From positions 8,868,501 through 8,932,500 of the forward strand of contig OX344758.2 in assembly GCA_947034885.2 (NCBI GenBank): a DNA stretch of 64,000 nt, written 5' to 3'. Positions within the stretch are counted from its first letter, which is position 1. Every line of letters starts with the position of its first letter. This stretch comes from Thuidium tamariscinum (Eukaryota; Streptophyta; Bryopsida; Hypnales; Thuidiaceae). The translations under genes were made by a program, and so were the position numbers. The notes beneath the pieces are model-generated. The model was not told where the DNA came from and did not search any database. It saw nothing but the letters and a program-made list of their open reading frames with translations. Shown in pieces: positions 1 to 60,000 of the stretch.

Positions 1-944
1 TTTAGGAGTGGAAAGTGGAGATCTTCTACAATTATTTGACTTCAAATGAATTTTTTTGAATATTTTATTACCAATGATTCCGATAGTTTTAGAAATGCTA
101 AATTCCACAAAGACCTCACACATCCTTATAAGGTTAAAAATGCTAGAAAGTGAAGAAAATGAAAAAGGTTTTGTTGCACCAATGGATGTTTTATTTGAAA
201 TGATGCATGCATTATTTATGCAAAAGTTGTAAGTATTGCACTTCATAGTAATCCAATTAGTAAAACCAACCTTGGCCTTAAATTGTTGCAAAGGCCAAAA
301 AATAACCAATGGAAGATTTTGAAGATTAGTTTTAGAAATGAAGATTGCACCTATTGGTTCGAAAGCCAAATCATTTTTGGCAAAGTACCTTTGTGATAGG
401 TCTCATTCTTCCAAGGTTAACAAATTTTAGCCTACAATGTACACCTTTAGAATCTCAAGTCAATTTTTTACACATCTAAAACCAACATTACAGAAATTCA
501 TAGTCTAGTCATATGGCATCCAAAAACACATTCTAAGATAATCCTCTTTCATCCAGAACTTACACAAGCACTTGCATTACAATACGTAAATCATTTCCCA
601 CTGTGCAAAAACTCTTTATCATAAGGAGCTTATAAGGTCAATTTTAATAATCCCTGGTAGGTACCATGTGATATCATGTGCATATTTGCACCTGATATTG
701 GGCTCAGTCATGATAAAACACTTCCTACATTCTACATATCAGTTGTACAATGTAAACCCACAGGCAGAAGAATAACTCCAGAATGTGCACCCAGTTGTCC
801 AATCAGATGTTCGTTCCAAGCATAAACAGGTTATACGCAATAACAAAGAGTACAAATTCAAATTCCAAGGATGTCAATGATACCAGAATTGTTCCAGACT
901 GCACTTAGTGTAAGTCAGGACAAAAGAAGCAAAAAAAAATCCTT
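1..944. other. AT-rich flank, no gene recognised
   Basis: No coding pattern is visible on either strand. From about position 945 onward the sequence becomes alignable with the 3' flank of the second heat-shock factor gene, so the left part of this stretch lies outside that duplication. Confidence 0.5.
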
Positions 945-1302
945 ATAAATGGCCAGCATACCAGTAATCCACTCTACTGATACAAAACCGGTGCTCATCA
1001 TATTCATTAACGAATATCGACGTAAACCTACAGACTACTCCACCTCAACAAGGTACTTTCTATTTAGTGTACAATAGGACGGTTCTTGGGAACAAAATGC
1101 ACATACATTCATTCCAAATCGTCGTCACAAGAATTTACGGAGGGAACCTGCAGCGACAGTCGCTGATGTCTCAGGACTCCAAGGGTGCTTGCCCCCAGAG
1201 AAGCATGATCAATGATGCACCAAGCATGACGCTGCTATGTACCCGTCCCTCAGACGTCATCATGCTCTCCTGCACACCCACCAAACCAAACCCACCCGGC
1301 CT

Positions 1303-3574
1303 CTATCCAGGTGCAAGCTGCCCCATTCTTACAGACAGCTGGTCAACACTAGGCTTCTTCGACCACCAATCCTTCATATCTCCTCCCTCATCACCTATAT
1401 CTTCGAAGTCCCCCGCCGTTTCATCTACTACTGCTTCATTGCCATCAGCACCTAAACTCAACTCCTCCTCTAGTTCGTGATCTACAGCAGATGGACTCCC
1501 GCTTAGGAATTGCTCCCAGAACATATCGTTCGCAGCGGACACGCCTGGGCTACCCATGTTGGAGATTCCTTCCTCTCCATCAGATACGAGCCTGCTCCCA
1601 TCAACATGAAACTCCATAGGTTCTCCAGAAAGATCTTCAAGTTTAATTTCATCGCTGGAGTATTTGCTAAAGTTATCGTTACTCAACACACCTGATTTAT
1701 ACATGAGCGCAAAGATGAGTCAAAAATCATCCAGACAGAAAACGAGATTCAAATTTAACCATGAGCAATGCTCAAGAAGGGCAGAACATAAGTCCTCTAC
1801 CAAAATCGAATCAGCCGAATCAAAACTCAAGAAGGCTCATCCAAGAAAGTTCAAATCGTTCAAGTCAAGTATCTAAGATCATATATGAACACTTAAATTA
1901 CGTACTACAACCACATACCTTCTAGCCTTGGAATTCGCGCTGCCAGAGGCATCGGTAGATCCACCTGCTCAGGAGAAGCATCCGTCACAACGGGACCAAG
2001 ATATCCATCATCCAGCCCTGGCGTGTTCATTTCCGTCAATGTGACACCTGATTGCCGGTTCAGTGCACCCACATCAGGACCAGACGGTGCTGATCCCAAA
2101 TCCCTGAACAACGCCTCCATAGGACCACTGTCAAGACCAGGAGCAGACGACGCATCCGGTGAGTTGAAAAACTGCATTATCAAGGACCGAGCTCCATTCG
2201 ATTCCACCGCCCCGTTCGGCTGAAAGGCCACTATTTGATTATCGGCTGAAGTACCCGAGCTCATAGAATCATCTCCGCTCATCGAGTCTTGCTTTGGCAG
2301 ACGCCGCTTCTTTCGCACGCTCGCTGCAAGCCTCTTGTTCTCCGATTGTTGCATCAGTTGCGCAAGAAAGCTCGGATTCTGCATGGCTTTTGCAAGAAAC
2401 GACATCATGTGTTGCTGCCGATTCTCCGTTGTGTTCAGCCGCTGGCGCATTGCCTACATACAAGGATTCGCAACTCTCAGCAAAGTCACGAAGAGCACAT
2501 GTCCAGACCAATCACACAACAAAAGGAAAGACTCACCCTAAGACACCAACATCAATAACCAAGAACAAACCAACGGTCTATCCAAATTCAAGTACCTGCA
2601 TCTCTCGGTCCGTATTCTGCTGCTGCTGTCGCAGTCGAACCAATTCCACCATCAAAACGTTCTTGTCTCTCTTCAGCATCTCAATTTCACCTTCCAAACC
2701 GAACTTCCCCACTTCGACGAACGGCCCTATCGAACCCTGCTCGCTCAGCTGATGCTGGTGCTGATGCTGATGTGGATGCTGCGGTTGGGCTGATTGCTGC
2801 GAATGCGTCGCTGGTTTGCGACGATGGATGCCCCGCAGAAGATCGCGCCGACCGCGCAAGAAACCTTCGTTCGCGAACTCCCAACGATCCGGATCCACCT
2901 TGCGAAAACCCTGCAAACATTCAAAACAACCAAGTCACATCAGCAAGAACTCTAACTCGAAATCTAAAAAAGAAACACAAAAAAAGAATCCAAACGCTTG
3001 GAAATCTACTCAGAGGCCCAATCAACCAAAGAACTGGAGAAACCGGACTGACTCTGCTACCGTGCTCAAAAAGCAGAACAAAAGGGGGAATTGGCACCCT
3101 GCGTCTACTGTACTACGAAACAGGATCATCCGTTTCGCGAGCCAGATTATCTCCTACAATTCGCACTCGGAGCTCACAAACCACCACAATCCACCACGCC
3201 TAGCCAACCCTTCACCTCGGACCCCGAACAAAACTTACATAGGTATTCAATTGACGGACGAAGCTGGAAAAGTTGTTGTGCTTGAAATACTTCGGCAAAA
3301 GCTCCTGGGCGAAATCCGGGGGACTCCACACGATGAAGCTGTTGTTCCCGCTGCTCCAAGACACCACATGGTCCGTCGCGGGATCGTCCACCATATCATA
3401 CGTCTTCGTCAGAAACGGAGGCGGAGCAGTGCCCTGCAACCCGTCCATGGGCTGGGGCGCCTGGCTGCCCACAACAGAAGACGCCGGCACCACATCCGAA
3501 TTCACTCGGTCCTGTCCCATGCTCTCTTCCAGAGAAGGCCAGTGCGGATCCGTCTTCACCACCTGCGACACCAT
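1303..3574 (-). CDS. Class A1-type heat-stress transcription factor, copy A
   Basis: Four exons on the minus strand: 3574-3239, 2910-2596, 2453-1919 and 1691-1303, all GT-AG and phase-consistent, giving about 524 residues. The protein starts [12 protein letters not shown]; the GTG codons farther upstream are not taken as starts. The DNA-binding domain begins around residue 52 ([14 protein letters not shown]) and is split by the intron typical of plant HSFs between QLNTY and [10 protein letters not shown]. It is followed by a His/Gln-rich linker, a class-A HR-A/B coiled coil starting [13 protein letters not shown], a basic nuclear localisation signal (VRKKRRLPK), an AHA-type activator motif (DMFWEQFL) and a C-terminal export-like segment ([14 protein letters not shown]). 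These parts together fit an HsfA1-like master activator that trimerises and binds heat-shock elements in the nucleus. It is the inverted paralogue of the gene at 20398-22865. Class assignment is from motif memory, not a tree. Confidence 0.93.
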
Positions 3575-3655
3575 TCTCTTTCCTCTCCCTGCCACCACTC
3601 ACTCCCGCCTCCCCCCCATCTCCTGAATTCCACAAACTCAAAATCCCAACCCTCG

Positions 3656-3691
3656 CTAAGAACAAGAAATCGCACAGCTGATGAGTCTCAT
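3656..3691 (-). other. Upstream ORF 2 of HSF copy A (11 codons)
   Basis: The ORF reads MRLISCAISCS and ends 81 nt before the HSF start codon. The matching ORF in copy B starts with the same MRLISC but runs to 33 codons, because copy A lacks 9 nt in frame and has TAG where copy B has TGG. Whether it lies in the mature leader is inferred from its position. Confidence 0.55.
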
Positions 3692-3731
3692 CAAGCGATC
3701 CCCTCGCGTCCAGGAAAACGCAACTCCAACG

Positions 3732-3758
3732 TCAATTACTTGCTAACGCCACCGCCAT
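3732..3758 (-). other. Upstream ORF 1 of HSF copy A (8 codons)
   Basis: The ORF reads MAVALASN and stops. Copy B has MAVALGGN at the equivalent place with the same length and stop codon. Conservation of start, length and stop suggests a translated leader peptide, although recent duplication alone could explain it. Confidence 0.5.
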
Positions 3759-3785
3759 GTACTCCCTCAATCCGACAACAAAACG

Positions 3786-15324: not shown

Positions 15325-16660
15325 CAGCAGGACGTTAAATTGGTCCCACGAAACCACACCCCGAAGACCCTGCACTTGGTGTCAGGTATGGGCCCAACAT
15401 CAACCCAGCCCCACCTGGTCCCATGACGTCTTCCCAGTGGCATAGGACATCGGCTCTACAGGACGTGCAGGACATTGACCTTATAATTTTTCAAACTATG
15501 AACGAATTTACTTATCCCACATTGTTTGACTTCCCTTCTACCGCCTACGTGTATATATAGAGTTATCTTCTCAGTGCAAAATACAAATCACAAAACACAA
15601 AATGCAAATTACAAAATAGAAAACACAAATCACAACTAAGTTTTTATAATTATTTTAAGTTCTTATACAACAATGAAAAATCTCATTAAAATGACAACAT
15701 TCCATATGTTAATTTTTGGATTGTGCAATTTGAATTAAAAATTGACATCTAAAATAAGTATAGATTTTCAAACATTTAAGATTCTTATAGATCTCAAGAA
15801 ATCTATGACATATATAGATTTTACACTATATTGTTTTAAACATCTTGGATAGGTATAGATTTCAAACATCTATAAAATATATAGATTTCAAAATTTTATT
15901 ATAGATTTAGATTTCAAATTGCATAGGGTGAAGTGTAAAAAGTGTCAAAGAAATCTTTGACATATAAAGATTTCAAACTATGTTGCCTAAAACATCTTGG
16001 ATATATATAGATTTCAAACGTCTACAAATATGTAAATTTTAGAAATCTATGACAAATTTAGGATTTAGATTGCATAGGGTGAAGTGTAAAAAGTGTCAAA
16101 GTAATAGAATGTTGTCATTTTAATGAGATTTTCCATTATTGTATTAGAACTTAAAATAATTATAAAAACTTAGTTGTGGTTTCTTGAGATCTATAAGAAT
16201 CTTAAATGTTTGAAAATCTATACTTATTTTAGACATCAATTTTTAATTTAGATTGCACAATCCAAAAATTAGCATATGGAATGTTGTCATTTTAATGAGA
16301 TTTTCCATTGTTGTATAAGAACTTAAAATAATTATAAAAACTTAGTTGTGATTTGTATTTTCTATTTTGTAATTTGCATTTTGTGTTTTGTGATTTGTGT
16401 TTTGCATTGAGAAGATAACTCTATATATACACGTAGGCAATAGAAGGGAAGACAAACAATGTGGAATAAGTAAATTCGTTCATAGTTTAATAAATTATAA
16501 GGTCGATGTCCTGCACGTCCTACGACTTGTAAAGCCGATGTCCTGTGCCACTAGGATGACGCTATGGGACCAAACGGGACTGGGTCGACGTTGGGCCCCT
16601 ACTTGACACCATGTGCAAGGGCTTCGGGGTACGATTTTGTGGGACCAATTTAACGTCCTG
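15325..16660. mobile_element. hAT-like foldback element with long inverted arms
   Basis: A 1336-bp element flanked by the 8-bp direct repeat CAAAAATG (15317-15324 and 16661-16668). The terminal repeats are CAGGACGTTAAATTGGTCCC and its complement ending CGTCCTG; the left end has three extra bases (CAG). The arms match for roughly 450 bp each, including TATATAGAGTTATCTTCTCA. The right arm carries a partial extra copy of the ATGTTGTCATTTTAATGAG segment (near 16115 and 16283). An AT-rich centre repeats TATAGATTTCAAA. No transposase. TSD length and the CAGG end suggest hAT. Confidence 0.85.
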
Positions 16661-17140
16661 CAAAAATGTAAGCTTATGCATCATCATTTAATTTACGGGT
16701 TAAGTAAGGTATGTATGGATACAATAGCAATACAACTTCCCAGTACCAACTTAACTACATTTGGCAATAAAGAATCATAACATTCAGTAGCAACCTGTCA
16801 CATTGCCTGCCAACGGATGAAATGGTGTGGAATATTCCACACCATTCAGTAACTAAAGTTGCAAACTTCAAGAAATGTCAGATGAAATTAGGTGATAGGG
16901 ACTTCACAAAGGGAAAGGCAGTCCTTCTATGGGCTACTGAATGTTATGATAAAAAAAATTCCAAATGAAAATGTTCGCATGACACATTATTTACTTGATT
17001 GGCCAGCAAAAGTGACATGAAAATTCATTCCAGCAAGGGAAGTCCTAAATGAGATCAATGTCTTCAATGAATGCCACTGAAATCATAAATCCCTGAGGAC
17101 CACAGCTTCCAGCACGGCATGAAGGAATGATGTTGCAGCT

Positions 17141-19874: not shown

Positions 19875-20204
19875 TGTGGAGAAATACAGACGTCATTCAT
19901 GCCAAGTGCAGTTCCCCTCGCCAGACTGCGCTGCACTTTTCCTTAGGGTTTCACGCACCCGGCCAATCTCCGACTCCCTCCAGTCTCCGCCATCTCCCTT
20001 GCCATTTCATCTTATGTCCCCGTCGTCATTGCTTTCTGCCGGAATTCAATTTCGACTTGGAGCTTCCATTCCATTCCATCGCAGCTGTGTCGGTGTAGCT
20101 AGTGTGAAAATCGCGCTGTCAACGATGGTCGGGCGCATCCCTCTCGTCATAAATGGAACAGGGTCAAATGGTCAAGGCGTTTTCATGTCCGGTTGAGGGA
20201 GTAC

Positions 20205-20231
20205 ATGGCGGTGGCGTTAGGAGGTAATTGA
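20205..20231 (+). other. Upstream ORF 1 of HSF copy B (8 codons)
   Basis: MAVALGGN followed by TGA, in the same place and of the same length as the ORF at 3732-3758 of copy A. An even shorter ATG-TCC-GGT-TGA lies just before it. Confidence 0.5.
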
Positions 20232-20271
20232 CGTTCGAGGTGCGTTTGCTTGGACGCGAGGGGATCGCTTG

Positions 20272-20373
20272 ATGAGACTCATCAGCTGTGGGGATTGGGC
20301 GATTTCTTGTTCTTGGCGAGGGTTTGGATTTTGGGTTTGTGGGATTCCGGGGATGGAGGGGATGCGGGAGTGA
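20272..20373 (+). other. Upstream ORF 2 of HSF copy B (33 codons)
   Basis: Begins MRLISCGDWAISC and is rich in Trp, Gly and Cys. It stops 24 nt before the HSF start codon. In copy A the same start leads to an 11-codon ORF because TGG is replaced by TAG. A ribosome translating this ORF would have little room to re-initiate, so a repressive effect is plausible but unproven. Confidence 0.55.
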
Positions 20374-20397
20374 GTGGTGGCAGGGAGAGGAAAGAGA

Positions 20398-22865
20398 ATG
20401 GTGTCGCAGGTGGTGAAGACGGATCCGCACTGGCCTTCTCTGGAAGAGAGCATGGGACAGGACCGAGTGAATTCGGATGTGGTGCCGGCGTCTTCTGTTG
20501 TGGGCAGCCAGGCGCCCCAGCCCATGGACGGGTTGCAGGGCACTGCCCCGCCTCCGTTTCTGACGAAGACGTATGATATGGTGGACGATCCCGCGACGGA
20601 CCATGTGGTGTCTTGGAGCAGCGGGAACAACAGCTTCATCGTGTGGAGTCCCCCGGATTTCGCCCAGGAGCTTTTGCCGAAGTATTTCAAGCACAACAAC
20701 TTTTCCAGCTTCGTCCGTCAATTGAATACCTATGTAAGTTTTGTTCGGGGTCCGAGGTGAAGGGTTAGCTAGGCGTGGTGGCTGTGTTGTCCACTTCTGA
20801 ATTGTTGGTATGTGACTAGTTGGATTGTGGTGGTTTGTGAGCCCCGAGTGTGAATTGTAGGAGATGATCTGGCTCGCGAAATGGATGATCCTGTTTCTCA
20901 GTACAGTGGACGCAGGGAGTCAATTCCCCCTTTCGTTCTGCTTTTTGAGCACGGTAGCAGAGTCAGTCCGGTTTCTCCAGTTCTTCGGTTGATTGGGCCT
21001 CTGAGTACATTTCCAAGTGTTGAGTTTTTTTTTTCTGTTTCATTTTTATAATTTCGAGTTAGGGTTCTTGGTGATGTGACTTGGTTGTGTTGAATGTTTG
21101 CAGGGTTTTCGCAAGGTGGATCCGGATCGTTGGGAGTTCGCGAACGAGGGTTTCTTGCGCGGTCGGCGTGATCTTCTGCGTGGCATCCATCGACGCAAAC
21201 CAGCGACGCATTCGCAGCAATCAGCCCAACCGCAGCATCCACATCCACATCAGCATCAGCACCAACATCAGCTGAGCGAGCAGGGTTCGATAGGGCCATG
21301 CGTCGAAGTGGGGAAGTTCGGTTTGGAAGGTGAAATTGAGATGCTGAAGAGAGACAAGAACGTTTTGATGGTGGAATTGGTTCGACTGCGACAACAGCAG
21401 CAGAATACGGACCGAGAGATGCAGGTACTTGAATTCGGATTGACCGTTGGTTTGTTCTTGGTTATTGATGTTGGTGTTTCGGAGTTTGTCGTTCCTTTTG
21501 TTGTGAGATGAAATGGGACATGGCAGCTGTGGGACTCTGCGCAGTGTAGTGTAAATGTGGTGGTTTGAGCGAACCCCACGCCGGATCTTGTTGAATTTCT
21601 TGCTGAGAATAGCAAAACCTTGTGTGCAGGCAATGGGTCAACGGCTACTCAAAACTGAGAGCCGGCAGCAACACATGATGTCGTTTCTTGCAAAAGCCAT
21701 GCAGAATCCGAGCTTTCTTGCGCAACTGATGCAACAATCGGAGAACAAGAGGCTTGCAGCGAGCGTGCGAAAGAAGCGGCGTCTGCCAAAGCAGGACTCG
21801 ATGAGTACAGATGATTCAATGTCCTCGGACGCTGCGGCCAATAATCAAATAGTGGCCTTTCAGTCGAATGGAGCGGTGGAATCGAATGGAGCTCGGTCCT
21901 TGATAATGCAGTTTTTCAACTCAACAGAGGATTCATCGTCACCTGGTCTTGATAGCGGTCCTCTGGAGGCGTTGTTCAGGGATTTGGGATCAGCCCCCTC
22001 TGGTCCTGACGTGGGTGCACTGAACCGGCAATCAGGTGTGACATTGACGGAAATGAGCACTCCAGGGCTGGATGATAGATACCCTGGTCACGTTGTTATG
22101 GATGCTTCTTCTGAGCAGGTGGATCTGCCTATGCCTCCCCATTTGGCAGCACGAATTCCAAGGCTAGAAGGTATGTGGCTTTAGTACGTTTTAGGATGGG
22201 TGCATCTTCTAGTTGCATCTATCTTTGTTACTTGAAATGAATGATTTATCCACTCGAAGTTTGGTGTTTGCTGATTACTTCGCGAGGAACATGGTTTTTT
22301 TTGCATTACTCGACTTGGTCCCGGATGGCAGTATTTAACGCTTCTCTTGGATGTGCGTTTTTGGTTTTGCATTCTTCTGTAGTTACGATTGTTTCGATTG
22401 CAATTCGAGCTGATGGATTGCTGCTCTTCCTCATTTCTGGAACCAGGTGGACTTAGTATGGAGAATGGGAGCAAGTATTCCAGCGGGGAAGGTAAACCAG
22501 AGGATCTTTCCGAAGATGCGATGGAGTTTCACATTGATGGGGGCAGACTGGTGTCTGATGGAGAAGAGGGTATCTCGAACATGGGTAGCCCAGGCGTGTC
22601 AGCTGCGAATGATATATTTTGGGAGCAATTCTTAAGCGAAACTCCATCAGCAACAGATCAGGAACTTGATCAAGAATTAGAGCAGGAACTAGAGCAGGAG
22701 TTAGGTTTAGGCGCTGACAGTAGGGAAGCAGATGAAGATGAGACGGTTGAGGATTCCGTGGAAGATTTAGGTGATGAAAATGGAGGAGATACCAAAGATT
22801 GGTGGTCGAAGAAGCCTAGTGTTGACCAGCTGTCTGTTAGAATGGGGCAGCTTGCACCTGGGTAG
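20398..22865 (+). CDS. Class A1-type heat-stress transcription factor, copy B
   Basis: Four exons, 20398-20733, 21104-21424, 21630-22170 and 22447-22865, encode about 538 residues. Domains: HSF DNA-binding domain about 52-145 with the conserved intron after QLNTY; a His/Gln-rich linker ([11 protein letters not shown]); HR-A/B coiled coil from about 187 to 258; nuclear localisation signal VRKKRRLPK near 265; AHA motif DIFWEQFL near 455; and a C-terminal [14 protein letters not shown]. It differs from copy A by an expanded acidic run made of QELD/QELE units near 470-484, produced by 12-bp tandem repeats, and by an [12 protein letters not shown] insertion-like stretch. The first in-frame ATG after the upstream ORF stop was taken as start. 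The role inferred is the same as for copy A: nuclear trimeric activator of heat-shock genes. Confidence 0.93.
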
Positions 22866-23240
22866 AGGCTGCGGGGCTGGGTGCTGGAGAGCTTGACGAC
22901 GTCTGAGAGATTGGTATATAGAGGGCGTTATCTGTTTTAGATCAAAACTGGTGAAGCCACCAGTATCGTATTTGAATTGAGACGTTCAGGAATCAGGTAC
23001 TCACGCTAGACATTGGCGACTTGCGCTGCTGTTCCTCTCCGTAAATTTTTTTGTGATGACAATTTGTAGCGAATGTACGTGCATTTTTGTTACGGACAAC
23101 CGTCTTACTGTGCACTAAATAGCGATTACCTTGTTCAGGTAGAATTCGTTTGTAGGTTTACTTTGATATTCAAGAATTGAAACGATGAGTACCTGTTTTG
23201 TATCAGCAGAGTGGACCACTGTTTCGCTGGCCATTTGTCA
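22866..23240 (+). other. 3' untranslated region of HSF copy B (inferred)
   Basis: The sequence is conserved with the minus-strand 3' flank of copy A, including CTCCGTAAATT, GCACTAAATAG and TTTTGTATCAG. No single poly(A) signal stands out. Confidence 0.45.
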
Positions 23241-24850
23241 ATGATCTTTTTTTTGTCATGACTGCCAAACCCTTATGTCATGGCTTACACAATAGTGGAA
23301 GTTTCGTGTTACGCTGACAATCGCTATGAACGAATTTTGCGATGTTTGTAAGATTCTCTTGCTCTTTGAGCTTGAAGTCTGCACTAGAAATTTGATAGAC
23401 GTGAATATGTGATGCACGGCTCTTGGTTCACGCTTTGGTAGCATTCTTCAATAGACTCGACTGTCTAATTGCACACTCAATTTGCATATTTCTTGTATAT
23501 CCTGGTAATCTTTTATGTTTTGTGCAAAATTGCCAGGACAACCTCCTCATGTCAAGTGCGAAAGCACGTACCAGGAAATTTATAAAAAAAGTTGCAACTT
23601 CCATATATTATTCATTGTGATTCACCTGCTCATGCACTCATCTCAATTGTCCCATCTGTTTCAATATACCTTGACTTTTTATTAGAACTTATTTAAGTTT
23701 CAAATTGGATCTTCCCAGACATTGTTCGACCTACAAGAAGTATTGCATTTCAGATGCCCAATTATGTCCATAGAAAGTGTGCAATTGAGGACAATTCAGT
23801 GCAGTGGCTCAGAATGAGAGCTTAGTCGACTTAGAACAAAATGATCGGCGGACATACTCACAAGCAAAGACAATTGCCCTTGATGACTTGAAGAACCACC
23901 ACTTGGTCCAACCGAGTACAACGTTGCAATTCAAAGTCTGAAGAATTGCAGGCCTATTTCAGATGCAAATTCAAAGGTGCTCAACCAGGATTCCTTCGAA
24001 TGTTAAGTTCCGTCAACAAGTCCAAAATTTCTTTCAGTGAAAACTTGAGGCATCTTTCTTGGCAGTGATGCAACCCAACGGGAAAAACAAAAACATGTAC
24101 CTGGCAACTTCAAAAAAGTGGAAAGCTCTGGCTTGTCCATATTTTACTGCAAAGATATGCCTCAAATTCTGATCACTAATCCTTACACATACTTCGGACG
24201 AACAAAATTCTACAACACCACTTAGAGCTTTACTCAACTCTCTATCAGACAGTTGGACATTTGAACAACATCAAAAAGAGGTTCACATTTGCCCTGGAAA
24301 CCCTAATCAAATCGGATACTACAGTGGATTTGAAAACAAAACGATGAGATCCCGAGGCAAACAAAACTCGTGAGAGTATACCTGCACTGTACAGTACATC
24401 TATGTTACACCTAATTCCTTGAGGAACACGTTTCGGAAGATTTTCAATTGCCGGAGTGCAAATATCATACCAGGAGTGTCAACCCACATTTTCCTCCACC
24501 GTGATAAATGAAGGATTTGGCCGCCTCCTCGTTCTCCAGTTGCTGCTTTCGAAGAACAAGCTAAAACCCATTGTTTTCTGTCCTCCAGATCCTTTACAGA
24601 GTGAAGAGTTGAAGTCTTCCTCTGACCCCATATTTGCGTACTTGAAGAAAATCTCGGATCCAAACACCAACGTGTAGGAACATTACGTCTCTAATAATTA
24701 TACCACATGAACGCAGATACACAGCAAAAGGAGGCGAACGACGTTATTCATACTGACGAGTTAACCCTAATAACCCATGAAACATCCCTGTTTTTGAAAA
24801 GAAACTGAATTGAAAAGCTGGCTCGAGGACAGAGCTGGCTGTGACGTGAG
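23241..24850. other. Intergenic DNA between convergent genes, no gene recognised
   Basis: Moderate GC with scattered ORFs below 90 codons on both strands; none resembles a known family and overlapping frames are equally open. Part of it is probably 3' untranslated sequence of the two convergent genes. Confidence 0.45.
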
Positions 24851-26469
24851 TTACGGGTAGTAATCGTCGTAGCCGTGGTATGGCCAGTTGTACTGCTGCT
24901 GGTACCCAGAGCCATAATACGAGTTAGCCTGATCGTAATCCGGAAGCTGGTAACTCGACTCCGGTGCTGTCATGGGTGTCGTCTCTTCGAAATCGAATGG
25001 AAGATTATCCGCCCAGCTGGAAGGAGAAACCTCCGGAGGCACTGGGAAATCATCCCACTCGAATTCCTCTGTCGCTTCACCCGTAGTTGACGTCGATGCT
25101 GCTGGAACTGCACCACAATTGAAGACACTATAAGTCTCCGAACTTCGCAATTCGTAATTCGCGAAATTGTATTTCGCGAAAATGACAAGTTTTAACATGA
25201 ATTTGCACGTCGAGTCCTAGCTCGTGTTTCAGCGAAGTTGGAGCCACATGTTAGACATCATGTACCCAACACCATGAATTTGGCACAAACCCGTGATCGA
25301 TTAATTCTAACCCTTTGACACAGACCCATGAAAGTCAAACCTTCTAATTAAATTTCATGATCCCAGGAGTGTTGCATCTGATTTTAGCGAGTCACACTAC
25401 AATAGGAAGTAGCTAGCGGTTGCAACAAATCATCAAATATTTTGCGATGGTTTTGTAGTGGTTCCGGACTCTGCCGATCAATTGCTAACCATTCCAACGT
25501 ACAGTGAAGCAAACTTGCTGCATGCAAAAGTCTTGGGCAAGTAACCAATGCAAATCTATCTATACAGCCTAAACTGTTGAAAAATCTACTCCAATCATAA
25601 ATAGTTGCAATTACATTCAGCACAACGTTGTACTAAACCATCAAAAATCGTTGACATATACAGTACATTATCTGGCGGTCATTGCAAGTCCGTTGCAAGA
25701 CCTACTGCCAAAACTCAGAATTTTGATTCGTAATGGATATTTTGGTTTACCAGTCGTTGCAATCTCTAGTAGTTGCTAACACATTGCACAATTAATGTTG
25801 TACAAACCCATTTCAAAATTTGTTAAAAGAATTTTGTCGGTACGGTCGATTACTCGCAATTCCGTAGCAAAAGCTATTCCTTAGTTCTGAAGTTCTAATG
25901 AACATGCTGTCGATCTTACCAGGGTTCATCGGCCCGGACTCCATCGCCAGCTTCCCGTACTTCTTCACCACCTTCCTCAGCTCCGCCGCAAAGTCCTGCC
26001 TCTGCAACTCCGTCGAAATCGTCGGGATCTGGTCATATATCGGGTGCCCATTGAAGTTCAGCGACGACTCACTCCCGAAGTATGTGATAGCCACATCGTA
26101 AGCGTACGCTGCCTCTTCCGGCGTGGAGTAAGTCCCCAACCACCACGTCTTCGTCGCTCTCGGAGGTCGAATCTCCGCCACCCACTTGTTCTGCTCCTTC
26201 CGGTACCGCACGCCCTTGTAGGCCGCCGTCTGCTGGCTCTCCACACCAGGAGAGTTGTACTCTCCAGAAAATTGTGGCGGAGTGGAGGATTGAGGGGAGG
26301 ACCCCCGGTCCTGCTTGCGGTGGACGTTCATGTGGCCGCCGAGAGATTGGCCGGACGTGAAAAAGTTGCCGCAGACTTTGCACATGTAGGTGCGATGACC
26401 AGGGGAGCCGCCGGGGCTACCGCCACTGTCGCTACTACAGTTCGAAAGGCTGGATTGTGCCATGACCAT
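24851..26469 (-). CDS. Fusion transcription factor: C2H2 (QxLGGH) zinc finger plus AP2/ERF domain
   Basis: Two exons on the minus strand, 26469-25920 and 25107-24851, joined in phase 1 (G|GTAAGA donor, TGCAG acceptor), give about 268 residues. Residues 28-50 form one C2H2 finger: C30, C33, H46, H50, spacing C-x2-C-x12-H-x3-H, with the plant signature QSLGGH at 41-46. Residues 84-140 form a single AP2/ERF domain (AYKGVRYRKEQNKWVAEIR, then WWLGTYSTPEEAAYAYDVA and LNF). Both lie in the same uninterrupted exon, so the fusion is not a gene-model artefact. The second exon encodes an acidic stretch (EEFEWDDF, then WADNLPFDFEE) and a Tyr/Gln-rich tail (YQQQYNWPYHGYDDYYP) that look like an activation region. 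A nuclear DNA-binding regulator is inferred; target and pathway are unknown. A second ATG two codons in is an alternative start. Confidence 0.88.
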
Positions 26470-26549: not shown

Positions 26550-27695
26550 AGAATATTGATAGTTCACTTGGGTGGTGCTAGAAGAGACTCATACATTGTA
26601 CTACAGTGTTCGGAGGAGACATACTAGCTAGAGCGTCTCGGTTTCATCTACAAGGGCGGCGCACGTATTGACGATTGTGAGGTCTGAAATTTTATTTACA
26701 TTTGGGGAGCTAGTGCTCGCAGTTGAATGCAAGTTGCCAATCGATCTGAAGCACGGGGAGTCTAAAAAAGTTGCGGGTCCGAACATCGACGCATTGGTAT
26801 CGCATCAAGAAGGCGATCAACAAAACTTCCTTAACTTGGACTGGTTCAAGTCTAGCCAGGCTGCAGGGACTTGAAATCAGCACATTCGTGTTGAATTACA
26901 TCCTCAAGCAGAAGGAACCCTCTGTAACTCCGACTCAGAGGAAGTGTGAGGAATGTACAAATTCGAAGTTTGTGAGAACTATACTCTACCGTACTGTTGC
27001 AATGATGTCAGTGATGAAGGACAAGAGCTTTCTGCCTAACTTGTAAAAACTGTAATGCGGAAACTCAAGACGTAATCATCTATTGCACTCCCACACTGAC
27101 GTAAACGAAGCTGCAAAGTTCGAAATAGTGTTGTGAACGAATTGATTCAACAGGACCCAGATCGAAACGGGGATTTTCAAAGTAAAACTCGCTCGCTCGA
27201 GCTTGTCAAAATAAGAAGAAAGTGCAGAATCACGACAGTCACACGCTACTTGGCCAAGGCAAGCTACTTCGAGAGGATCAAACCTTCGCCTCGTGGAACA
27301 TATCGATCGATTCGATTGTACAGATCGAGTGTGGCGTCCGTTTGGAATGGATCGATTACAAAGAAATCTAGCCCAGCCTCATTCACAGAGTAAATCAACA
27401 CCAACCATGCCAATATATACCCAACTCCGATACCGAAGCTAGCGCCAGGCCGGCAACCCGTTTCTGATTGCACAGAGCTTTGCTAGCTACCGACTGTCGG
27501 GTGACGCAGTCACGCCAGCACACGCAGAGGTACGTCGAACAACGACTGACAATTCAACGGGAAAATCACCAAGTGTGCGGCCTGTTTTATACAGCCAGCC
27601 AGCTAGAGAGCGAGAATAGTTGCAGACAAAACAGGAAGGGGTAAGCTGACGTCCAAGCGGCGATTCGAACTACAGGAGAGAGAGTTTCCGAAAGC
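26550..27695. other. Upstream region of the C2H2-AP2 gene, no gene recognised
   Basis: Moderate GC sequence that should contain the promoter of the minus-strand regulator gene. ORFs up to about 90 codons are present on both strands but show no family resemblance. Confidence 0.4.
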
Positions 27696-41775: not shown

Positions 41776-43879
41776 TCAATTTTCTGCCCCCAATTTGAAT
41801 TTTCTGACTGATGACATCGGTGTCCGAGAACCGAGGTTCAAGCCGGTCCGGGGGCTCCAGGAGATCTCTTTCCTGACTGTGAAGCACGAATCAGCAGTGA
41901 GAGAGAAAACAAGCTCTTCCCCAAAGCAAAGTGCGTTCTCACTGACGAAATCAGCCCACCCCACTCCTTTCAGGAATAACCTGTCCCGTCCATTGTCCTT
42001 GTAGCAAACGCATCGGACTTGGTTCTGTGCTGGAGATTCCTCATGGATTCCTTGAAGTTGAACAGGATCATGCAGCTGACCGCGGTGGGCTGCCACGAAG
42101 TCTCTTGGAATTTCCTACGAATTGAACACAGATCAGTGCATGTTGCCGGCACAAGCTGCTAGCTAGTATCTGTACATTTTACTCAGAAATATTCGTAAAA
42201 CACTTGATTGGAAAGTTCACTTGTTACGTACAACCAAAAGCTAGTTAAATAATATATGGAAAATGTACAGTACATGAATCAATCATAGAGATATATAATA
42301 ATATTAAATATATTCATCGGATCTTACTGCCACGAAGTCTCTAGGAATTTCCTTTGAACACAGATCAGTGTTGCCTAGGCTGTTAGCATCTGAAGATTTT
42401 ACTCAGAAATATTCGTATCTTAAAACACTTGATTGGAGATTTACTGGTTTCGTTCAACCAAAAGCTAGTTACAGAATCAATCGTAGTGATGTTGAATATA
42501 TGAACTGGATCGTCATGCATTTGACTACGGTGTACTGGAAGTCGTGCATGAAGTCTTTCCAAAACGTTCAGATACAAGTACAAACAGGCTTTTAGTATCT
42601 GACTGAAGAAGATAAAAACTGAAAGTTACTTTGAACACTTGATCAGAATCGGGGATGCAGCAGACCTCATTCCACTAAAATATATTCACTACAACTTCAA
42701 TGTACTCGAGTCGACCACATGGATATTAGAAAGGGGCAAATTTCGAAAAAACACCGATATTAAAAAAGCCAACTTATGCTTTACCTACTAAACAAGAAAG
42801 CACGCAGGAGGTGTATTAAAATGTCTCGGTTGATGTAAGATTAATACATCCTCCACGTGACAGAGGTATTCCATTAAACTGAAATTGGAATCAGGAAAAG
42901 GAGCAAAAGTTCAGAGTAATACTCGGAGCTCACCAGTTGGTAAACGTTGATCTTCACGAGTCTCCTGGAGAAGCTTGGAAGGCATGAAGCTCTGTTCGAA
43001 CGCAAGTCCTGCTGCACCATACGACGAAAAACCCATGCATGAGCTAAATCTAGCGATCGGACGGGAAAGTTTTTTTCAAGATAGAGGTTATGAACTTACC
43101 AATTGCGAAGGTGCGTTCTCAAAAGATAACTTCTGGCAAGCAGTATCATTAGAAGCACAGTCGGCAATTTCATCATCCTCAAGCGGCACCTTCTTTCTTG
43201 TACACATCTCAGGTTCAATCATCCTGTTCCCAGATTTGCGACATGCCAGATGCTTATGAGGCCATTTGATTGTTTCTGACCATTTCATGGGGGCGTGTAT
43301 CTTTTGAGGTCCCTTGGGCTCTCCAAGCCCGTCGAAAACGTAAACTTGAAACTGGGATATGGCCGTGAGGGAGAAAATCAGCTGGTCGCCTTGGACGAGG
43401 TCATGGGAGGTCACAAAAGCTCCCCATCGCTTGCCGGCAAAGGTTACTTCTGGAACATCTCGGGAAGTGCAAAAGGAAAGCCTATGTGGCCATGGTTTGT
43501 TACAGCTGAGGTCAGATCGCAACTCCACGGCCCTTCGAAACTTGTTGCCATGTTCACAGACAAACCATCTGGGCATGGACTACAATCCGGCCACAAGGAA
43601 TATCAGAAGATTACTCATGTAAATTACAATGCACCGCTAGCTTCTTACAGCCACATTGATCGTGCAGGTAATTAGGGTTTGAGAGCAAATTGGTCGTGTA
43701 ATGAAACACACCAGCTGACCGTGTCGACGTAAAGTTGAAGATCGACGCAACGCATTTGTAGAGCTTAGTTTCTTCTGGAAATAGACGCTCCCCCGCAAAT
43801 CATCCAGCACGTCGTTCAAATCTCCACTTCGTACTGATCGGATCATTTTTGTATCTGGACACGCTGTGGAATTCTGCAT
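41776..43879 (-). CDS. Two-B3-domain DNA-binding protein (REM-like)
   Basis: Four exons on the minus strand, 43879-43649, 43579-43100, 43011-42934 and 42114-41776, all joined in phase 0, give about 375 residues. Two B3 domains are visible. The first runs from about ICSQTLITCTINVA through SMPRWFVCEHGNKF to GAFVTSHDLVQGDQLIFSL. The second runs from SFSRRLVKINVYQL through EIPRDFVAAHRGQLHDPVQL to WADFVSENALCFGEELVFSL. In both, an intron falls at the same point of the fold and in the same phase, which supports the model and an origin by internal domain duplication. Exon 3 has a CAGCAG acceptor that could vary by one codon. B3 proteins of this type are nuclear DNA-binding regulators; the target is unknown. 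The first exon is the least certain, and MIRSVRSGD at 43846 is an alternative start. Confidence 0.72.
42090..42475. repeat. Tandem duplication inside intron 3 of the B3 gene
   Basis: Two copies, about 42090-42260 and 42330-42475, share CTGCCACGAAGTCTCT, GAACACAGATCAGTG, TTTTACTCAGAAATATTCGTA, AACACTTGATTGGA and CAACCAAAAGCTAGTTA. The left copy contains the true start of exon 4; the right copy contains a truncated exon start. Confidence 0.85.
42328..42351 (-). other. Possible 24-nt duplicate micro-exon (EIPRDFVA) in the B3 gene
   Basis: On the minus strand an acceptor (TTCAAAG) is followed by 24 nt encoding EIPRDFVA, identical in protein to the start of exon 4, and then directly by a strong donor GTAAGATC. 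Inclusion would keep the reading frame and repeat eight B3 residues. It may be a spliced micro-exon, a decoy or inert. Confidence 0.4.
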
Positions 43880-47600: not shown

Positions 47601-47664
47601 AACTGCCTCACCCCAAATCGATCAATCCTTGCATTAGGGTTTCACTTCACGCAACTCTGCGCTC

Positions 47665-50210
<2,546 letters not shown>

Positions 50211-54099: not shown

Positions 54100-57000
54100 T
54101 TAATGAGGTAGGGAGCCACGCAGCCGTTTGTCGTCTCCCCTAACAGCTGCCTTGTTTTCTCTCTGGAGTTCTTGGAGGCGAATCATCACTGATGAGGCAC
54201 TGCTCTTCATGCCCAAAGCCTCATATGCAGCTCGTGCCATTCTTAGAGTACTGTTGTCAGGCTCAATTCTGCATCACGGAATGATCCATTCAGTTTCTAA
54301 AATTCTGGTGAAAATTTCAAAAACCTACATCATTAACTATAACTCATGACGGCACTCAGCTCATATCTATACGCACTTGGCAACAATCGAAAAATGACGG
54401 AGCGATCAATCCATGTGGGACTGTACCCTTGAGCCAGAACCTCGGCGTATAAGTCGACAAAGGTCTCCCAAAGCTCCAGTTGTCCCAAGCATGAAAGTAC
54501 AGGCTCGTACGTTTTCCAATTGGGTTGCATTTTTTCTTTCTGGATAGACCCCAAAATCTGAAAACCACCCCACAAAACATTCAGTTGGGAAACCTAGGCG
54601 AATTCTGAGATAGTTACAATCCAGTCAGACCATGATCACATCCATAATTTTATTATTTTCAATACAGGTATTCGAACTTCAAAATTTTAGCCTCACCTCC
54701 AGACACTTTCGCCACTTCAAGCCACGACTGTAACTATCAACCAAGATGTTAAATATCTGAAGAGTAGGCACATATCCAGCCTTTTGAAACTCAACGTACA
54801 CCTGCAGCCAAACAGCATAATGGAGTAGCCATGAGCAGTTGCGCTGAAGCACAAGTAAGGGAGAGAAGAATCATCTCATAACTTCCTGGGATCTTGTTGT
54901 CAATTGAAAGAAGATTCCACCATCGTAGCATGAAGTTTTGGGACCACATAAACAAACTATAAATTTTCAAAGTATTCATTATAGGTGTACTCAAAATTGA
55001 CCTAGGCTCTCATGTTGAGATCATATACATGATTGGATTTTGGCTCAGCTTGCAAATAGGAGCGGTTACTCTAAGTCCGACATGGGCTACTTGGAAAGCT
55101 CTGCATTATGATCGGTGTGCTCACAAAATTACTTCGGAGATAACATCAACAGACTTCGCCTCATTCTGTGACTTGTCGAGAAGTCTTAACACTATGTCAA
55201 GCAGAAATGAAACACTACTCTGAACTGACAGAACAATCTGTGAATGTACCTTGTGTAATCGATCAAGTTTTCCACTTCTACCAACAGCAGAGAGAAGATT
55301 AGTAGCCATGACGTCCGTAAGCTGTAATCGTGCGTTTTTCAAGTCTTCATACACAAAGAGAGAAGTCTCCCAGTCCTTAAGCCTGTTCACAAGATCGGTA
55401 AGTATTAGACACAATGCACTTATTTAACAAAAGTCTACTGAATAAAACTACCTGCATCTACAGCAACCATCAAAGCTCCAAACAATCAGGACAAAGTCAT
55501 ACTAATTATCATCAGCAATCAGATCAATACCTGTTACATGCTATCAACATTTCTGTGTAAGCAACGTCATTAAATGGAATTCTCCGTGCTCGTAAGGTTT
55601 TCCCAATTGCAAGAGCCTCTTCAGAGCGATTTCCTTTGTTCAAGACCATTAGAAGGGCTCCATATGCAATACTGTCAGGAGCTATGCCTGCTGCAACCAT
55701 CTCCTCAAACGCAGATTGCGCATGTTCGTACATCCCTTTGCATTACAATATGAAGGACACAGTGAATATGATTACAGATGGGATGACTTTGATACAGGTA
55801 GTCTCATGTAAGCAAAGGATATGACATACTAACATGAATGATTTGAATAAGCAGACCTGCATTGCTGTAGGTGAATACGAGACTCGTATATGTAACCACG
55901 TTAGGCTTGCATCCAGCTTTCTTCATATCATCGAATATCTCCCGTGCCTCATTGTACATGCCCTGCACGCAATACATGGCCACATTCTAATAAATGTGTC
56001 GGGCGGAGTGTATAAGATCGAGTCCAGCACATTTCAAAAGAGATCCACCATTAGCTTCACAAGCTCATTAGTGGTAAGATAATATAAATCTAATAGATCA
56101 ACATTATATCAATATTAAGATAATGTTTAATTTCAGTAAATGTTAACTTGATAGTTGCCAGTATAATACTAAGTAAATGCCAGGACACTAACATCACACT
56201 GACATTACGTTAACACTATTTTCTTTAAACTAACATTAACACAGTAACATCTGGGGTGGTACAATCTTTGAAAAAGAAATTGAAACGGTCTTAATTTAAA
56301 CTGGAATACTACTGCACACCCATGAACCAAGAAATAAAAGGCATAATGGAGGTTGACGGCATGTTGTAAGCGGATTCTGCGTTAGCAATGGTCTTACAAG
56401 CTTTGCGAAGGCATTGATAAGTGCTGAGCAGGGCTCCACAGTCAAAGGCACGCCAAGACCGATCATTTTGTCATACAAGTGTTTGGCTTGTTGGTGATCT
56501 CCAAGATTTCCAGCAGATTTGATAAGTTGTAAAAACGTGACCCCATTTGGTTGAACCTGTTCCTCTTCCATGACCTCCAGCAACACTAAAGCCTCAGCCA
56601 ACTGTCCAGCTTCTACGTACGCTGCAATGGCTGCATTGAAAGCCGGGGGGTTCAACACTATCCCCCGAATCTTCGCTTCCTGAAAAACATCTTTCACTTT
56701 CTGTGGGCACCGACCTCGTGCACAGGCCGCAAACAAAGAGCATATGGTGACCACGTTTGGTTCAATTCCAGCTTCGGCCATGTCATGCAGAAGCTCTCGA
56801 GCTTGCTCGTATTTCCCAGCTGCTGCATATGCATCCACCAGGCCATTAAAAGTGACGAGATTTGGTCTCCGTGATCTCTTCTTCATCAGGTCCAAAACTT
56901 CCTGAGCTTTCTCTGGATGACCCGACTTGCCAAACGCATTGAGCAGCGAGGAGTAACTCACAACGTCTGGTTCAAACCCTGCTTTCACTATGAGACCAAA

Positions 57001-60000
57001 CACTTTGAGGGCCTCCGTGTGCATTCCCTGCGACGCGTAAGCCCCCAAAAGAGTGTTGAAAGTCACTATCGTTGGAGACACACCTTCCCCTGCACATAGC
57101 GAATTCCTCGTAGTTGGAAAACTTAAAACTGAGAAATTTTCATAGCAGGCAATGCTACATCTAGAAAGAAACAGCTCCATGAATGTCAAATGAAGCATCC
57201 TCGTCTATGGCAACCCTAAAAGACAATAGTGAGGATGAACAACAGTACAGATTCCACTAATAGAAAAACCACCCCCAAAACGTATTCCAGAAAACTTAGC
57301 TACGTTAAAATTGCCAGGAAATAAGTTTAAGAAAATCTCTTAAATGGCATTATAATTGGTAAAGTTTAATGCGGCTAAGTTTAGTAGGATACCTCTAGAG
57401 AGTTGGAAACTTAAAGACTGAGAATTTCCATTCTAATCAGCGGCATTCTAGAAAGAAATGCCCCTTAACCGTCAAAATCCTCATGAATTACGATCGTCAA
57501 ACAGAACAGTGTAGATTTCACCGGTAGGAAATCAATACCGAGGAGTATTCTAGAGAATTTAACCGCATTATAATTGACAGGGTTTAAAACAACTAGATCT
57601 TCTTGAATAGAACCCCGGGGGAACAGGTGTACATAAATGAACTTGGATAAGTCGTTCTTACCATTCATCATATCAAAAGTTTCACGTGCCTTGGCAATCT
57701 CCCCGCGCACAGCATATAAATGCAGGAGAGCATTGAAAGTGATAACATCTGGTTCACACCCATTCATCTTCCGCATTTCATTGAAGAGCCTGATTGCATC
57801 TTCAAAGCGGCCGAGTTTTGTCAAGCAGTTGAGTATTATGTTGTGGCTGTATCGGTCAACAGGCACTTTCTTCGAGACCAGGTGATTATAAAATGCCACT
57901 GCATGACGCGGTTGACCTCCAGATTTAAACGCGGACAGAATGATATTGTGTGTCATCAGGTCGGGACCAACACCGTTGTCGGTCATACGCTTGCACACTT
58001 CTAAGGCTTTGAACCATTCGCCACTGCGTCCACATGCGTTGATTAAGTTGTTGTAAGAGCTTCGGCTTGGAGCAATCTGTGTTTCAAAACGATAACAACA
58101 ATGAGCACCTTAAGCATTCAAAATAATTATCAATTGAATTGGTCACCTGAAAACCTTGATTCCTAGATCCTTCGAAATCAAAGCTTCATGTTGCTCAAGG
58201 AGATACGGAGCAAAATCTGTGCATAGTACCCACCCCTGTAGGATACTCACACCAAGGGGAAATTCTAAACCCAAAAAATTTAAGATTTAAAAACTCGACT
58301 CGCACCTAGGGTGCAAATCTTCACCCTAATCCGATGTGGCACATGACAAGGGGGTTGGGTGGCGGTTAGGGTACGTCTTAAAACCTTGAAGTTAAATCCT
58401 ACCCCATAAGATTATAATCTTCAAAATAATTAGATGTTGGAAGGGAATTGTGAGGGTATGTAAAACCTCAGGAGAGGATGAGGTTTGTTTACCCTTGAAG
58501 GTTAAACTCCCTCCAATGTGTGAACGAGGAAAATTTATCCTCACATGGGTTATATTATAAATTCTTCGTATTAATCCCCACATAATTAAAATTTATAAAC
58601 TCTGTTTTCATCACCCTTAATTGTGAATGAATTTATAGGTATTTTAGGAAACCTGGTCACATTAAACCTTGTCAATTGCAATGCCAATTAAGACATTTTC
58701 TAACATGAACCCTGACATTTTCGAACTCAAGCATTGTAGATTTTCCAGAATATCTCAAGAGGAGAATTTTCTACTTCAGCTAAGTCCTCAGCAGAAACAA
58801 GAGGTGCCCACGAATATAAAAGAGAAAGGTGTCACTAACTAAACATCAAAAGCTAGGGAGCTTACACAGGCCCGTTGCATGTCATCAAAAATTTGCAGAG
58901 CCCAACGCCATTGTCCAGCTCGACCATGAACATTCATCAATGCATTGTATGTTTCCACATCTGGCTTGCACCTGAATTAACACCAACACTCCACAATTGA
59001 GAATTTTAACCGCAAAAGAGCTCTAGGATTCAAAGTTTGGAAATAACCAATTCCATTGATCATATTGTGCAAAATATAACCCAGATGGGACCAAGCTTGA
59101 TATCTCCAGAATCAGTGAAGAGCAATGCATGTGATAGCCAATAAACAAATCAAATTAAGCCAAATTCGAAGTTACCTGACCTCCATTCCTGCATCTCATA
59201 AAAGAGACTCCGCGCATGATCGACACGCTGATGTCTGGCGTGCAACCAGATCATGTAGTTGTAGATGTCAGTCCGTGCCCGGTAACATTTCTGGTTCTTC
59301 ATCCAGTTGAACACCCGCAAACTGTGTTCTATGGCCCCTGTCCTCGTCATTTCCTGCAAGAACATTCAGAATGCTCAAGTTATAATTGTGCTAAGCTTAT
59401 GCTCAAGTTCTATAAGATAGAGGACACTAAAACCGTTAGGACCGCATCCCGTCTCTTAATGACCCACCCCTGCTACCTACAGCAACACATCCCTTCCATC
59501 AACGCTTGCTTGGCCTTCGATTAGCAAGTTGAGTGTAACCATGACTTGGCAAATAATGTCTACGGCCGCTCCTCTTTGAATGAAAGCGGTATTTTCTACT
59601 ATACGTTAAATAGTGATCTAAAACCTCGCACTTCGAATGATTTCAAGAAGAACTCGTCATCCATCGCGTGCTATAACAATTCGATCTTAAGAGAGTTGAC
59701 TCTTAGTAATCTCTATGTTGAGTGGCCTCCCAATGAAACCACAATCCTAAAGATTGGTTAAAACGCTTAAAGCAACGGAAAGAGTGTACTCGACCTAGTT
59801 CCAACATTAGAGCAAAGTTCAACACTCTCAGAATTCACGGTAGAAAGTTAGAACGCGTGGTCAAAAGGGATGCAATCAACACGTCAGAAATTTCAACAAG
59901 TTCCTCACAGCACGAACTCTTCCGGGAAAAGGACAAAAACGACAATTGCGATGTGAAAGCCACAAGTCTGGAAACGCGCTCGTATTCGAAACATTAGAGC

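Follow-up and report, generated by a model that had tools for sequence, protein, structure and literature searches.

A predicted transcription factor gene encoding a QxLGGH zinc finger and a diverged AP2 domain in one exon

Gene model and coding evidence

The window analysed in this study, a 64,000-nt stretch of Thuidium tamariscinum DNA, contains a gene that was predicted to consist of two exons and one intron and to encode both a C2H2 zinc finger and an AP2 domain (Table 1). The exon-intron model was predicted from the sequence; both exons are open, the splice sites are canonical, and the phases of exon 1 and exon 2 are consistent. A previous sequence-only reading had placed the gene at 24851-26469, with the finger and the AP2 domain in one uninterrupted exon. 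These coordinates were exact: on the minus strand, the gene starts with an ATG at 26469 and its stop codon ends at 24851. Both domains were found in the exon 1 frame with scores above the Pfam cut-offs.

Table 1 Coordinates of the finger-AP2 gene, its parts, and the other features observed in the window.
Feature	Positions	Strand	Description
Whole gene	26469 (ATG) to 24851 (stop codon end)	-	268-residue protein
Exon 1	25920..26469	-	550 nt; open frame to donor CTG/GTAAGAT at 25919; N-terminus, C2H2 finger, linker, AP2, and post-AP2 segment; covers residues 1-183 and ends one base into codon 184
QSLGGH C2H2 finger	26320..26388	-	Residues 28-50; Pfam and ligand pattern
Linker	26221..26319	-	Residues 51-83, about 30 residues; Gly/Ser/Pro/Gln-rich
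AP2 domain	26053..26220	-	Residues 84-139; Pfam to 128, PDB alignments to 139 and further
Intron (predicted)	25108..25919	-	812 nt; GTAAG...TGCAG, acceptor end GTGCAG
Exon 2	24851..25107	-	Tail residues 184-268 and stop codon; in-phase join
Heat shock factor gene, first copy	930-3785	-	Inverted duplicate pair with the second copy
Heat shock factor gene, second copy	20178-23255	+	Inverted duplicate pair with the first copy
Inverted repeat	15327-16661		Arms about 480 nt, 91% identical
ORF with B3-like match	43088-43579	-
Proteasomal regulatory ATPase exon	47638-48207	+	Prot_ATP_ID_OB_C
Two adjacent ORFs	56296-58109	-	PPR repeats

When exon 1 was subjected to mononucleotide shuffling, 3 of 2000 shuffled sequences were open over 183 codons. 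A chance open reading frame was ruled out by the scores of the two domains: since zf-C2H2_6 and AP2 both exceeded their cut-offs, neither is a chance match. TATA-like sites were observed at 27591 and 27419, and no AATAAA was present in 24300-24850, the 550 bases downstream of the gene. A second copy of the gene was not found in the window, where all other tblastn matches had E values of at least 2 with a query that was correct only before residue 184.

Codon usage was evaluated with a model trained on six other open reading frames of the window, the gene status of which was assumed. For each segment of the gene, the controls were 2000 open stretches drawn at random from the window; the other genes and the training frames were included among them, and stretches beginning inside the tested gene were excluded. 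The codon score of exon 1 was 0.389 in frame versus -0.103 and 0.113 in the shifted frames, and the frames of the intron scored from -0.523 to -0.295. The fraction of random stretches that equalled or exceeded the score of the segment was 0.129 for the N-terminus, 0.341 for the finger, 0.025 for the linker, 0.135 for the AP2 domain, 0.025 for the post-AP2 segment, and 0.223 for the tail. Codon usage is thus weak evidence for the finger, which by itself is not set apart from random open stretches, and it gives limited support to the N-terminus, the AP2 domain, and the tail. The linker, with 0.553 bits per codon (matched by 2.5% of the 2000 stretches), is among the most coding-like parts of the gene. 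The third-position GC content was 0.62 in the N-terminus, 0.86 in the finger, 0.59 in the linker, 0.78 in the AP2 domain, 0.88 in the post-AP2 segment, and 0.58 in the tail, compared with 0.37-0.42 across the three positions of the intron.

Domains of the predicted protein

The finger contains the ligands C30-X2-C33-X12-H46-X3-H50, with QSLGGH at residues 41-46, and therefore has the arrangement of the plant QxLGGH C2H2 type (C-X2-C-X12-H-X3-H with QxLGGH). It matched Pfam zf-C2H2_6 over residues 28-53 with 31.9 bits (cut-off 25, E 1.2e-07). The ligand pattern and the Pfam match together bear out the earlier description of a complete finger at residues 28-50.

The Pfam AP2 match scored 49.6 bits (cut-off 33.3, E 4.8e-13), which exceeds the curated cut-off and assigns the protein to the AP2/ERF superfamily. 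The alignment covered residues 84-128, corresponding to positions 3-48 of the 54 positions of the profile. When the PDB was searched using the AP2 domain and the post-AP2 part as the query, six distinct sequences were matched up to E 1. The best match was WRI1, which aligned in two stretches (2.6e-13); the higher-scoring of these, repeat 2, reached 31.7 bits. Two AtERF1 sequences (34.4 and 34.5 bits), ERF096 (32.6 bits), and TEM1 (26.2 bits) were also found, as was a bacterial protein containing an AP2-like region (E 0.0021).

Compared with AtERF1, the AP2 domain is one residue longer in the first turn and one residue shorter both in the second turn and after A127. In contrast, the alignment with WRI1 repeat 2 was gap-free to the end of the helix and contained only the one-residue deletion past the helix, indicating that the turn lengths are of the WRI1 repeat 2 type and not of the AtERF1 type. 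The residue past the helix is missing relative to every PDB chain shown and to the four aligned prokaryotic or viral loci.

We take the DNA-contact positions of AtERF1 to be 147, 150, 152, 154, 160, 162, 170, 172, and 186. On this assumed list, six of the nine contacts are identical in the AP2 domain, Lys stands in place of Arg at 147, and two contacts are replaced, Trp154 by Gln and Arg170 by Thr. Because the equivalents of Trp154 and Arg170 are the replaced ones, the preference would be shifted away from the GCC box; an altered DNA preference of the domain is plausible from its residues. The sequence-only reading had called the AP2 domain complete and had stated that the key residues of both folds are retained. 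The domain itself was confirmed, but "complete" is slightly generous for a partial Pfam alignment with one insertion and two deletions versus AtERF1, and the second statement holds for the finger and only in part for AP2, in view of the contacts and the indels described above.

The acidic and aromatic tail noted in the same reading was present and was located in the second exon. Its 85 residues (184-268) include 16 acidic, 17 aromatic, and no basic residues, giving a net charge of -16. This composition would fit an activation region.

Comparison with known families

Zinc finger and AP2 modules usually occur in separate proteins, and AP2 factors are known with a second AP2 domain or with a B3 domain. 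The predicted protein resembles the single-AP2 factors AtERF1 and ERF096 in its single AP2 domain, in which the YxGVR, AEIR, WLGTY, EEAA, and AYD core is present. For the ERF subfamily, in which a single AP2 domain with the AtERF1 contacts binds GCC/DRE elements, the observations are mixed: one AP2 domain is present, but on the assumed list six of the nine contacts are identical, one is changed from Arg to Lys, and two are replaced, and the domain has three indels. The predicted protein differs from AtERF1 in these one-residue indels, in the two contacts replaced on that list, and in the C2H2 finger at its N-terminus. WRI1, the top PDB match, shares the turn lengths of its repeat 2 with the candidate domain; unlike WRI1 and the double-AP2 proteins, however, the candidate has a single AP2 domain with one residue fewer past the helix. 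The AP2 subfamily, which has tandem AP2 domains, was rejected as an assignment, since Pfam gave one AP2 match in exon 1 and none in exon 2.

The RAV family (AP2 and B3; TEM1) also consists of plant factors pairing AP2 with a different DNA-binding domain, and RAV1 reads a bipartite site. By analogy, the candidate may work like the RAV family. Its partner domain is, however, an N-terminal C2H2 finger, and the AP2 domain of TEM1 was a weaker match (26.2 bits). Membership in RAV, where B3 lies C-terminal to AP2, was rejected because no B3 match was obtained with Pfam in the frames of exon 1 or exon 2.

SUPERMAN (PDB 1njq) likewise contains a single QxLGGH finger and matched residues 26-55 (7.9e-06); animal finger arrays in the PDB outscored SUPERMAN against the candidate finger by sequence. 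In contrast to SUPERMAN, the candidate has an AP2 domain downstream of the finger, and a pattern scan of the 268-residue protein found no EAR-type motif (LxLxL or DLNxxP). A repressor of the SUPERMAN/ZAT type was rejected on the absence of this motif.

The homologue collections searched consisted of prokaryotes, viruses, and solved structures. For the 15 PDB chains listed, no best stretch spanned both domains. The prokaryotic contig scan confirmed 1 of 24 candidate stretches, and the viral contig scan confirmed 2 of 9, or 4 of 37 when the AP2 alignment was used as the query; by contig name, two of these AP2-query matches (L005 and L006) repeat L003 and L002, respectively. The one prokaryotic and two viral matches (L001-L003) extended over residues 72-150 at most, which is the AP2 part; open reading frames were read at these three loci, and L004 was aligned. 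The AP2 domains of prokaryotic and phage HNH-AP2 proteins were 33-45% identical to that of the candidate, and six HNH endonuclease families of PHROGs matched residues 74-150. The candidate differs from these proteins in having no Pfam HNH match and a plant finger instead. No NCBIfam family was matched.

No description of the finger-AP2 pairing was found in the part of the literature that was searched with several narrow, in some cases poorly worded, queries, and the pairing is not mentioned in the portions of PMC4827209 and PMC8304369 that were available. By its domains, the gene is classed here as joining known families in a new combination.

Possible modes of action and the surrounding window

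On balance, we consider it somewhat probable that the gene encodes a single land-plant factor that joins one QxLGGH finger, through a flexible linker, to a single diverged AP2 domain and an acidic/aromatic activation tail, and that acts as a composite DNA reader. If the gene is expressed and spliced as predicted, the AP2 sheet would probably lie in the major groove of the DNA and supply most of the recognition. The finger, carried on the flexible Gly/Ser/Pro/Gln linker, would add a short contact with neighbouring DNA, giving a bipartite site, and the tail would recruit the transcription machinery and thereby activate transcription. A wider proposal can be offered only tentatively, namely that the protein belongs to an undescribed, lineage-conserved class of plant regulators that use two modules, a QxLGGH finger and an AP2 domain tethered by a flexible linker, to read a bipartite element together. 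If this were true, the pairing would join AP2-AP2 and AP2-B3 as a third means of equipping AP2 factors with a second DNA reader. A finger-AP2 protein would also show that land plants had one more way of assembling composite regulators, here out of two large families. It would serve as a compact test case of whether two small linked DNA readers select a two-part site.

The main rival to the composite activator is a real fusion in which AP2 alone reads DNA and the finger has a structural role or contacts another protein; in that case, no bipartite site would exist. The finger is a lone one, and the basic residues after it are limited to the short stretch HRKQDR; a scan of the 268-residue protein found neither the nuclear-localisation pattern K[KR]x[KR] nor a run of three basic residues. 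SUPERMAN, by comparison, reportedly requires basic flanks for DNA binding, and this paucity of flanking basic sequence is consistent with a finger that does not read DNA. However, QSLGGH is intact, and the QxLGGH motif in plant fingers is tied to DNA contact. We regard DNA reading by AP2 alone as rather unlikely, though deserving consideration.

The composite activator also has to be weighed against a gene of little function that is confined to one lineage, either as a private recent fusion or in a state of decay. The three one-residue indels of the AP2 domain, its two lost contacts on the assumed list, and the absence of AATAAA downstream would agree with such a gene, but this explanation appears improbable in view of the two open exons, the canonical in-phase splice sites, and the high third-position GC content in both domains.

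Regarding the question of one protein or two, the finger and the AP2 domain share exon 1 in a single open frame without a stop codon; consequently, shuffling of separate exons is not required for the origin of the fusion. In-frame methionines occur only at residues 1, 3, 29, 47, 176, 181, and 229. With no in-frame ATG between residues 48 and 175, the AP2 domain lacks a separate AUG in this frame, and any AUG start that keeps the domain whole must sit at residue 47 or before it; starts at 29 or 47 would truncate the protein before or inside the finger. Translation of AP2 from its own in-frame AUG was rejected on this basis. Three YAG acceptor candidates were found near the linker, preceded by 7, 5, and 4 pyrimidines in 14 positions, and the frame contains two near-cognate codons ahead of AP2, GTG at residue 76 and ACG at residue 81. 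A donor-like site, GGA/GTGAGT, was observed at 26072 inside the AP2 domain. These sites could in principle allow the finger and AP2 to be separated in vivo by alternative splicing or an alternative 5' exon, or the two could have been brought together by an assembly join, but we consider any such separation very improbable, because the YAG sites have no pyrimidine tracts, the AP2 domain lacks an in-frame AUG, and the linker between them is coding-like.

Several other features were observed in the window. About 1.6 kb separates the second copy of the heat shock factor pair from the 3' end of the finger-AP2 gene. The two copies are 78-95% identical in pieces, and each has a readable DNA-binding exon; the family was recognised by eye. 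As the pair is an inverted duplication, the position mirroring that of the finger-AP2 gene would fall just beyond the left edge of the window, and a paralogue may be located there. An open reading frame located about 17 kb from the finger-AP2 gene gave a B3-like match of 30.0 bits versus a Pfam cut-off of 30.1. The proteasomal regulatory ATPase exon is presumably RPT5-like. The two adjacent open reading frames with PPR repeats, which we take to resemble Arabidopsis EMB2654, probably belong as exons to a single P-type PPR gene. The PPR, proteasomal ATPase, B3-like, and heat shock factor genes together represent the gene content of a land plant. Shorter repeats lie close to the inverted repeat, which may be a mobile-element remnant.
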